From contig CP113928.1 of assembly GCA_029392055.1 (NCBI GenBank), positions 432,501 through 496,500 of the forward strand: DNA of 64,000 bases, in the 5' to 3' direction. The DNA is from Leuconostocaceae bacterium ESL0723. Its GTDB lineage: Bacteria > Bacillota > Bacilli > Lactobacillales > Lactobacillaceae. Made by a program: the position numbers and the translations under genes. The notes under the pieces are model-generated. The model made no database searches and was not told where the DNA came from. It was given only the letters and a program-made list of their open reading frames with translations. Below are positions 12,084-30,868 of this stretch, one piece after another (positions within the stretch are counted from its first letter, which is position 1; every line of letters starts with the position of its first letter).

Positions 12084-12557
12084 ATGCAAATTAGCGGGGC
12101 CGATTTTTTACAAGTACTAACTGACGAAGCTTATGACCAAGAAGTCCTACCGGTAGCCGACCAGGCCGCCGTTGACCTGGACCAGCTCTTTGATCGATTG
12201 GGCCAGCAGGTTGAAAATCCAAAGCTCATGCAGCTCACCGTGACCTTAAACGGGGGCGTGGCCGAAGGGGGCACCAACCTGACCCTGGAAACCAACGTAA
12301 TCAACCTGCCATTGCGTTACCAAAACCAACTAAAAAAACTGGTCTATGCTGACCAGGATTACGAGGTTAACCTGTATATGTACGTGGAAAATGCTGATGT
12401 CAGCAAGTCCCACCTAAAAATCACCAAGGTTAGTTCAGTGACCGCCTATGTCGATGATCCAGATAGCGGCCAGCAAAAGATTTCAGCCTGGTTTGACCAG
12501 GAGTTAGCCCACATTGTTGAGGTACAAAAGGAAAGTGACGAAGCCCCCGAGGATTAA
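12084..12557 (+). CDS. Hypothetical protein, acidic, 157 residues
   Basis: I do not recognise a family with confidence. The protein starts MQISGADFLQVLTDEAYDQE, is rich in Asp, Glu and Gln, and shows no signal peptide or membrane segment, so it is probably cytoplasmic. I chose the ATG at 12084 because AAAGGAG lies seven bases upstream; an in-frame start at 12054 would fall inside the preceding terminator. It converges on and overlaps the small minus-strand gene by four bases. Confidence 0.75.
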   Translation: MQISGADFLQVLTDEAYDQEVLPVADQAAVDLDQLFDRLGQQVENPKLMQLTVTLNGGVAEGGTNLTLETNVINLPLRYQNQLKKLVYADQDYEVNLYMYVENADVSKSHLKITKVSSVTAYVDDPDSGQQKISAWFDQELAHIVEVQKESDEAPED

Positions 12558-12805
12558 TCAGTCGTGATTTTGGCTAAAAGTTCGTGGCGGCCGGCATCAT
12601 TTTCATAGATGATTTTTAGGCGTTGGTTATTCTTTTGCCAGCGGACCGATTCCACGGCCCCTAGGTCAAAGCTGTGGCTGACAAAGTTGGCCAAGCTTTT
12701 GGGGTTCTGGGCTTCAAAGTCAGGTACCAGCAGGTCGGCCAGGTGCTGGTTACTAGCCCCCAGGTCGCGCAGGGGATGGGTTTTAATTTCAGTCAGTTTT
12801 AGCAT
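12554..12805 (-). CDS. Small hypothetical protein, possibly from a leaderless transcript
   Basis: This 83-residue ORF begins MLKLTEIKTHPLRDLG and has no family I recognise. I preferred the ATG at 12805 to the longest start at 12910, which would run through the promoter of the RNA unit described next. No ribosome binding site precedes 12805. A minus-strand TATAAT at 12812-12817 would place transcription start at or next to the ATG, so the mRNA may be leaderless. Its stop overlaps the convergent gene. Confidence 0.55.
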   Translation of the reverse strand: MLKLTEIKTHPLRDLGASNQHLADLLVPDFEAQNPKSLANFVSHSFDLGAVESVRWQKNNQRLKIIYENDAGRHELLAKITTD

Positions 12806-12842: not shown

Positions 12843-12871
12843 TTGTCTTTAGGCCCGGTCTGATATATAAT
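12843..12871 (+). promoter_or_regulatory. Promoter of the structured RNA unit
   Basis: -35 TTGTCT (12843-12848) and -10 TATAAT (12866-12871) are exactly 17 bases apart. The transcript would begin at about 12875-12878, where the RNA's closing stem starts, and no ORF follows. Confidence 0.85.
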
Positions 12872-12874
12872 ATA

Positions 12875-13105
12875 GGCATGCGATGAGTCGAAGCGCTTAG
12901 GCGCGAGCATACGGCCTACTGTGTTAAATCACAAACCTCGGATTTGGTGTAGGTGTTAGCAGTGTTGTGGAACGCTGTTAGCTCACCATGACTATCAACC
13001 TTTGGGTTGAGGTGACGTGACTTGAGTCAGGTTTCACCTGGCCGTCCGTCAGAACGTATCTGGCATGCCAAACTAGCAGCTAACCATTCGGTTAGCTGTT
13101 TTTTT
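12875..13105 (+). ncRNA. Structured non-coding RNA of unknown family, with own promoter and terminator
   Basis: A strong promoter precedes it and a perfect terminator ends it, with no ORF between. The 5' GGCATGC (12875-12881) pairs with GCATGCC (13063-13069) to close the molecule. Inside I can draw: hairpin GCGC-TTAG-GCGC (12893-12904); stem ACGGCC/GGCCGT (12911-12916 with 13040-13045); hairpin 12920-12933; a long hairpin 12952-12987; TCAACC-TTTG-GGTTGA (12995-13010); a two-part hairpin 13011-13038; and CAGA-ACGTA-TCTG (13050-13062). It lacks the landmarks of tmRNA, RNase P RNA, SRP RNA or a T-box. The size is near that of 6S RNA, but the multi-branched fold does not look like a 6S rod. Confidence 0.75.
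13075..13105 (+). terminator. Terminator of the structured RNA
   Basis: CAGCTAACC-ATTC-GGTTAGCTG (13077-13098) is followed by seven T. Confidence 0.92.
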
Positions 13106-13125
13106 ATTCCCTGCCAAAGTCAGCC

Positions 13126-30716: not shown

Positions 30717-30749
30717 GTTGGCAAAGGGCAAAGTGTGCCTCTTTACCAA

Positions 30750-30835
30750 AAACAGGCCACGTTCCTACGCTAGTTCTAACTAGAATCAGGTTCAATGGGT
30801 CTCATCTCAGCCGCAAGCGGCACCCCAGTGGACAG
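30750..30835 (-). promoter_or_regulatory. TPP riboswitch (THI element)
   Basis: Read on the minus strand, the region carries the conserved thiamine-pyrophosphate aptamer: GGGGTGC, CTGAGATGAGACCC, TTGAACCTGAT and GCGTAGGAACGTGG in order. It sits between the thi promoter and the terminator ahead of thiD. By the known mechanism, TPP binding would favour the terminator and lower thiamine-salvage gene expression. Confidence 0.95.
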
Positions 30836-30868
30836 TTAATGATTAGTTGTACGGTTAAATACGGTCAT

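Follow-up and report, generated by a model that had tools for sequence, protein, structure and literature searches.

The window analyzed here, a stretch of 64 kb, carries on its forward strand a small RNA (sRNA) that, judged by its sequence, is an antisense partner of the peptidyl transferase center (PTC) of 23S rRNA. It would pair there with the 5′ strand of helix 90 (H90) and with the loop of helix 89 (H89), the latter contact being kept by compensating changes. Covariation supports pairing between the two RNAs well, as far as a comparison of genomes can do so. We consider it fairly probable that this divergent Ref68-type sRNA base-pairs in trans with 23S rRNA, probably as a folding chaperone or place-holder. 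The RNA family was already known from Rfam; the 23S rRNA partner proposed for it is new.

Gene boundaries and predicted features

Both ends of the sRNA were predicted, from promoter and terminator scans, the fold, and the Ref68 match at 12879 to 12975. They give a transcript of about 228 nt (12878 to 13105), longer than the 190 to 200 nt of the original prediction. The features referred to below are as follows, with 23S rRNA positions (U2506 to A2518 and others) in E. coli numbering taken from rrlB.

12843 to 12871, + strand: promoter from scan, with −35 box TTGTCT (12843 to 12848), 17-nt spacer and −10 box TATAAT (12866 to 12871)
12878 to 13105, + strand: sRNA, about 228 nt, predicted to start at A12878, about 1 base ahead of UGCGAUGAG, and to end in the terminator T-run
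12879 to 12891, + strand: 5′ antisense element UGCGAUGAGUCGA, complementary to 23S U2506 to A2518, i.e., the H90 5′ strand plus one base on each side
12915 to 12919 with 12949 to 12953, + strand: P2, enclosing P3 and P4
12921 to 12932, + strand: P3, inside P2
12935 to 12948, + strand: P4, inside P2, with loop CGGAUU
12955 to 12982, + strand: P5, a hairpin of 12 bp
12966 to 12971, + strand: P5 loop UGUGGA, complementary to U2473 to A2478 in the H89 apical loop
12983 to 13015, + strand: P6, a hairpin with a kept 7-nt bulge (AUGACUA, 12988 to 12994), in the Leuconostocaceae-type 3′ domain
13043 to 13064, + strand: H-type pseudoknot, S1 pairing 13043 to 13045 with 13054 to 13056 and S2 pairing 13048 to 13053 with 13059 to 13064
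13066 to 13073, + strand: UGCCAAAC, candidate contact with 23S G2490 to A2497 in the H89 3′ strand, in this lineage only
13077 to 13105, + strand: intrinsic terminator from scan, with a 9-bp stem (13077 to 13098) and T-run (13099 to 13105); hairpin span 13075 to 13100

For comparison we used the window locus together with 102 more, 103 loci in total, which were collected with an RF02840 model that contains the 5′ motif. As the loci were gathered in this way, the conservation of the 5′ motif, whose 13-mer was identical in 62 of the 103, partly reflects how they were chosen. The TTGTCT-17-TATAAT promoter of the original prediction was recovered by the scan. Taken by itself such a match is at chance level (1 found, 0.7 ± 0.8 expected); a TANNNT box ending 5 to 8 nt ahead of the 5′ motif was present at 101 of the 103 loci, the window included, compared with 91 of 1,236 control positions. 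A run of at least five T's lay 110 to 290 nt downstream of the motif at 99 of the 103 loci, a count made without a control. As neither the spacing of the box nor the downstream T-run had been selected for, the 5′ motif most likely forms the extreme 5′ end of the transcript. The bases ahead of it vary from locus to locus.

The 9-bp terminator also held up: the hairpin at 13075 to 13100 is followed by T's, and its stem (helix 12) was paired in 96% of the cells of the 21-sequence alignment described below. The 7-bp pairing proposed between the 5′ and 3′ ends did not, as it uses GGCATGC at 12875 to 12881, three bases of which lie upstream of the inferred start at about 12878. A minimal leaderless ORF (AUG CGA UGA) at the sRNA start was considered and rejected, the base before UGCGA being A at 85 of the 103 loci and G, T, or C at 18.

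Relationship to the Ref68/Lacto-3 family

At gathering scores, Rfam models returned nothing at the sRNA locus. This agrees with the original view that the RNA is not tmRNA, RNase P RNA, SRP RNA, or a known riboswitch, none of whose covariance models matched there at gathering score. The only gathering-score match in the 64-kb window was a TPP riboswitch away from the sRNA (30744 to 30837, − strand, 65.4 bits). In a search by E value, however, RF02840 (Ref68/Lacto-3) was found at 12879 to 12975, with the full model (1 to 124) aligned at 37.6 bits and an E value of 2.1e-6. The score is below the curated gathering score of 44 bits, whereas a homologue in another genome (G002), likewise located before xseA, reached 45.5 bits. 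Given the full-length match and this relative in the same place above the cutoff, the window sRNA is, judged by its sequence, a divergent homologue of RF02840 outside the curated limit. The claim of an RNA without a known family therefore fell. What was undescribed is the role of the RNA and its 3′ domain, not its existence.

Ref68 (RF02840; Enterococcus sRNA 68, Lacto-3 RNA) shares with the window sRNA the 5′ UGCGAUGAGUCGA, the hairpin with the CGGAUU loop, and the UGUGGA hairpin; the model is matched over its full length, with its first hairpin mostly gapped in the window. Unlike the 124-position Ref68 model, the window sRNA continues past the match into a 3′ domain of about 130 nt with a pseudoknot and UGCCAAAC; this pseudoknotted domain of the window lineage lies outside the Rfam model. 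The entry line of RF02840 in Rfam names no target.

6S RNA (RF00013) resembles the sRNA in size and in being a single gene, but it had no match at the locus and occupied a separate locus in 26 of 41 relatives (E ≤ 1), and it was rejected as an identity. In G000 and G001, 6S RNA was not found at E ≤ 1; a divergent copy below detection is the probable reason.

Distribution and genomic context

Matches to RF02840 were found in 35 of the 41 relatives at E ≤ 1 (17 above the cutoff). When 295 Lactobacillales genomes were searched at E ≤ 0.01, 171 had a match (74 above the cutoff). These cover 53 of 75 genera, and the RNA was almost always present as one copy per genome. The other 124 of the 295 Lactobacillales genomes had no RF02840 match at E ≤ 0.01, so in these the RNA was missed, is dispensable, or has been replaced. 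Both f8 genomes listed were without a match, also at E ≤ 1. In a class-wide search, a strict pattern was matched by 16 of the 28 Lactobacillales genomes and by 7 of the 271 from elsewhere in the class. As the seven outside matches had no promoter box in the right place and by eye resembled chance, no homologue was seen outside the Lactobacillales among these 271 genomes.

The genes flanking the sRNA differ from family to family. It is a free-standing gene whose product would act in trans. By xseA, the closest relatives of the window and its genus-mate G001 were Convivina, Leuconostoc, and Fructobacillus. In a survey of xseA, in which 80 named loci were kept out of 451 found and the sRNA motif was sought as an exact pattern, the motif lay 283 to 355 nt ahead of xseA in 17 of 26 Leuconostocaceae loci (L113 to L138); the exact 5′ motif was absent from the remaining 54 kept loci. 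Nine Leuconostoc xseA loci (L116 to L122, L125, and L126) were without the exact motif; there the sRNA gene may have diverged or lie elsewhere. We rejected the possibility that the RNA is a cis-regulatory leader of xseA, as the terminator precedes xseA, the flanking genes vary, and only 17 of the 80 kept xseA loci have the motif.

Two further reading frames near the sRNA had no Pfam match. The one at 12084 to 12557 (+ strand) encodes a 157-amino-acid protein, relatives of which lie upstream of the sRNA at 18 of the 103 loci, and the one at 12554 to 12805 (− strand) is a small ORF of 83 amino acids with relatives beside the sRNA at 6 of the 103; both counts include the window.

Secondary structure

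Positions 12878 to 13107 folded at −87.8 kcal/mol (z score −4.1), and none of 200 shuffles was as good. The structure, with its pairs drawn on the window, was tested on 21 Leuconostocaceae-type sequences, i.e., the window and 20 homologues. Among its 61 pairs, 39 had changed on both sides, compared with a shuffled mean of 26.2 (0 of 500 shuffles as high) and with 9 to 15 in slid versions. Pairing was possible in 87.8% of cells versus 35.5 to 37.8% with slid partners, a comparison biased in favor of the observed value because the structure was drawn on one of the aligned sequences. The fold, the pairs changed on both sides, and the spacing of the promoter box bear out the prediction of an independently transcribed, structured RNA with covariation.

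Support was not uniform along the molecule. The pairs of P2, P3, and P4 (helices 2 to 4) were formed in 100%, 100%, and 96% of cells, and 8 of their 12 pairs had changed on both sides. For P5 the corresponding values were 82.5% and 9 of 12 pairs; the long hairpin that had been drawn with 13 bp at 12952 to 12987 is present, with 12 bp at 12955 to 12982. Past the end of the Rfam match at 12975, P6 (helices 6 and 7) was paired in 100% and 94% of cells. Both stems of the pseudoknot were paired in 100% of cells, with changes on both sides at 1 of 3 pairs in S1 and 3 of 6 in S2. By eye, three loci (L014, L049, and L059) read CCUG...CAGG in place of S1, with a different S2. P2, P3, P4, P5, P6, and the terminator were thus well supported, but on this alignment the first hairpin, P1 (33% of cells paired), and a hairpin at 13028 to 13040 (45% and 62%) were not.

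The ACAGGAUGU P4 loops raised the possibility of a CsrA-like GGA loop, which was rejected, as other P4 loops (CGUAU and CGCAU, by eye) are without GGA. Pairing of the P4 loop with 23S positions 2518 to 2523 would suit AGGAU loops and in part CGGAU loops, but not CGUAU.

Complementarity of the 5′ end to 23S helix 90

We searched the sRNA's own genome for the complement of the 5′ motif, allowing up to two mismatches. Ten sites were found, the gene itself among them, compared with 25 for a backward control; as the control gave more sites, the number of sites is no evidence. After the gene itself, the best two sites, each with one mismatch, were both copies of 23S rRNA, at UCGGCUCAUCGCA in the peptidyl transferase center. 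With both copies, the 5′ element can form 12 Watson-Crick pairs and 1 G·U pair. The best 23S duplex of the 13-mer was estimated at −22.5 kcal/mol and the best among 300 shuffled 13-mers at −19.6 kcal/mol; a local estimate for the native H90 strands was −14.7 kcal/mol. In the Rfam large-subunit rRNA structure, C2507 to C2517 make up one entire strand of a helix that we take to be H90.

Across 60 genomes, the 5′ element pairs without a mismatch in 55. The other five have one mismatch each, which is a G·G at position 10 in four and an end mismatch in one. Nine of 66 genomes have an sRNA with C at position 6, and all nine have G2513. However, position 2513 (A or G) also covaries fully with its native 23S partner, 97 nt downstream of 2474, and its agreement with position 6 is therefore no independent proof of pairing.

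Covariation of the P5 loop with 23S helix 89

The second antisense element is the P5 loop, which across genomes reads UGUGGA or UGUGAAC. Its counterpart in 23S rRNA is the H89 apical loop, which in the Rfam structure is exactly G2472 to A2478. The 23S stretch from 2444 to 2546 was sought in 98 of the 103 sRNA-bearing genomes and in 4 others. It was obtained from 70, of which 66 bear the sRNA, while 32 of the 98 gave no 23S by pattern. Few bases in this stretch vary, among them 2474 (C or U) and 2513. A GUGGA loop accompanied C2474 in 43 genomes and a GUGAA loop accompanied U2474 in 23, an agreement of 66/66. More than one GUG(G/A)A was present in 8 of the 66 genomes, six of them with both kinds; we used the copy that lies in the hairpin, which is also the one picked by an automatic hairpin rule run on all loci. 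Agreement was likewise complete (60/60) in a set of fetched 23S sequences, in which three loop states were assigned by hand from the hairpin and the automatic rule gives the same result.

In the latter set, the mutual information between the loop and position 2474 equaled the entropy of the loop (0.948 bits), and the next best of 1,125 variable 23S columns reached 0.395. Within 23S rRNA, the best column against 2474 likewise reached 0.395 of 0.948. With no strong covariation between 2474 and any other 23S column, the P5 loop is not an imitation of a native partner strand.

A 23S tree of 59 genomes was built without the two variable columns. On it, the loop and position 2474 each switch 6 times, and strongly supported branches force 4 of these switches. 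A paired sign test on the forced co-switches gave 4/4 (P = 0.125), a test that with 4 events could not reach 0.05. When the two were simulated as independent traits on the tree, full agreement was reached in 0 of 40,000 runs (20,000 at each of two rates), the best being 55/59. At least 6 of 7 Watson-Crick pairs between the P5 loop and the H89 heptaloop are possible in all 60 genomes and all 7 in 22. The seventh pair, C-G2472, occurs in 21 of the 22 genomes with U2474, which are those with the weaker A-U2474 pair. Three AGUGGAC loops lose the pair at 2478 and gain one at 2472.

Genus g39, probably Lactobacillus in the strict sense, judging by its many sampled species, had no RF02840 match in the 13 genomes listed. 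The three g39 genomes whose 23S rRNA was read (G041, G042, and G063) all have U2474 and G2513. A pattern left open at both variable bases found the sRNA gene in G041 and G042, with a UGUGAA loop, C at position 6, and a −10 box upstream; the state of the loop in both is that predicted from their 23S rRNA. With the loop fixed as UGUGAA, 9 of 31 g39 genomes matched, 8 of them convincing by eye.

By the automatic rule, 2 of the 103 loci (L004 and L060) have no GUG(G/A)A loop, the 23S rRNA of both genomes lying outside the comparison. L060 (genome G025) has a variant 5′ motif and no recognizable UGUG(G/A)A loop, and this genome encodes a DbpA RNA-binding domain.

A candidate third contact in the window lineage

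In the 3′ domain, UGCCAAAC is an 8-nt perfect complement of 23S 2490 to 2497 and is unchanged in the 21 rows of the alignment. The 23S bases are invariant in the stretches compared and so carry no covariation signal. A 3′ contact of this type spans 8 nt at 9 of 101 loci; 21 of the 101 match the stretch over 6 nt or more, while shuffles average 4 to 5. On the strength of this complementarity, UGCCAAAC could add a contact to 2490 to 2497 in the window lineage.

Proposed role and alternative explanations

The computations establish the gene, its structure, how widely it occurs in the order, and its covariation with 23S rRNA; from them we infer pairing in cells, the stage at which it takes place, a chaperone role, and any helper protein. 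The free 5′ end of the sRNA would form a 13-bp duplex with U2506 to A2518 that covers the whole 5′ strand of H90, and a kissing interaction would join the P5 loop to the heptaloop at the tip of H89. As the 13-bp duplex and native H90 are mutually exclusive, pairing would take place before the center closes, on pre-50S particles or unfolded 23S rRNA. H89 and the PTC fold late in 50S assembly. The sRNA may hold H89 separate from H90, and both of them in order, during assembly of the remainder of domain V, after which it would have to leave or be removed. We also lean slightly toward the broader proposal that the sRNA is a dedicated bacterial rRNA-folding chaperone that times closure of the PTC, as an independent counterpart of snoRNA chaperones, with a third H89 contact contributed by the Leuconostocaceae 3′ domain.

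The helicase DbpA is thought to act near H90 to H92. Its RNA-binding domain (PF03880) was found in 6 of the 41 genomes and not in the other 35, among them every one of the 25 that belong to the window's family. DbpA was rejected as a clean replacement for the sRNA, as both f8 genomes are without either and two genomes (G033 and G040) have both.

The location of the target leaves room for other readings. One is that the sRNA keeps the PTC inactive when growth is slow, like hibernation factors, by binding to 23S rRNA or free 50S subunits. In its favor are the choice of target, U2506 and the H90 strand in the catalytic center itself, and a single-copy gene with a promoter of its own. However, the 5′ strand of H90 is paired in the mature rRNA structure, so the 13-bp duplex needs the center unfolded, and the promoter box appears to be of the ordinary vegetative type; silencing is thus unlikely, though it is the first alternative to be weighed. 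We regard it as improbable that the sRNA guides a modification or processing enzyme to its 23S segment, or that it tags misfolded 23S rRNA for decay by an RNase. The two antisense elements do flank a stretch with several modified bases (2498 to 2504), and long perfect RNA duplexes can be RNase III substrates, but no enzyme is linked to the gene, whose neighbors vary between families, and no snoRNA family matched at gathering score in the window.

Two readings would make the match to 23S rRNA incidental. The sRNA might be a decoy for an assembly protein, which it would bind by resembling the native 3′ strand of H90 and the surroundings of H89, with complementarity as a by-product. The strand to which its 5′ element is complementary is indeed the one bound by the native H90 partner, with which 2513 covaries too; as 2474 has no covarying 23S partner, however, there is nothing for the P5 loop to mimic, which makes a decoy very improbable. 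Least credible of all is that the RNA is a conventional trans-acting sRNA, directed at mRNAs by a 5′ seed, that matches rRNA by coincidence. Although sRNAs with conserved 5′ seeds are common, the complete covariation of the loop with 2474 is never reached by simulations of independent evolution. A CopraRNA target list published for one conserved Enterococcus sRNA pair (PMC7724050) also speaks for such a reading. Pairing with 23S rRNA during folding accordingly remains the reading that we prefer.

Comparison with known chaperone RNAs

Our search of the open-access literature found no paper on Ref68, Lacto-3, or the 5′ motif, and, among the full-text results listed, none on a bacterial rRNA-pairing chaperone RNA. 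To our knowledge, no bacterial sRNA targets rRNA for assembly, and the RNAs so far described to help in folding the catalytic center of the ribosome are those of eukaryotes. If the proposed role is true, bacteria too evolved RNA-assisted folding of the PTC, with an origin independent of snoRNAs, and a testable function is gained for an orphan sRNA family found across the Lactobacillales. The question of how H89 and H90 avoid misfolding in 50S assembly would then become directly testable. An Enterococcus sRNA pair (sRNA_112 and sRNA_005) with a conserved first 50 nt has been described (PMC7724050) and might be the same RNA.

The closest parallels are eukaryotic. U3, U14, snR30, and snR10 are named as chaperones in small-subunit biogenesis (PMC8536666). 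They share with the role proposed here that an RNA chaperone pairs with pre-rRNA, but they are eukaryotic snoRNPs and serve the small subunit. Yeast snR190 acts as a snoRNA chaperone: it carries elements antisense to domains V and I, it has been connected with structuring of the PTC, and its release is attributed to Dbp7 (PMC8536666). As proposed for the window sRNA, a small RNA with two antisense elements, at least one of them for domain V, would help to structure the PTC and would not guide methylation; antisense elements to large-subunit rRNA are indeed what both possess. Unlike the window sRNA, snR190 is a box C/D snoRNA, directed at H73 in domain V and at part of domain I (PMC8536666), so that its target bases differ. 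Rfam models revealed no snoRNA family at gathering score in the window, and the sole snoRNA models between 12500 and 13400 at E ≤ 10 (E values of 2.5 and 4.1) lay on the opposite strand, outside the sRNA, which itself has a bacterial promoter and terminator. By analogy, the window sRNA may thus work like snR190 without, by these models, being a snoRNA of that kind, and with no common descent seen between the two.
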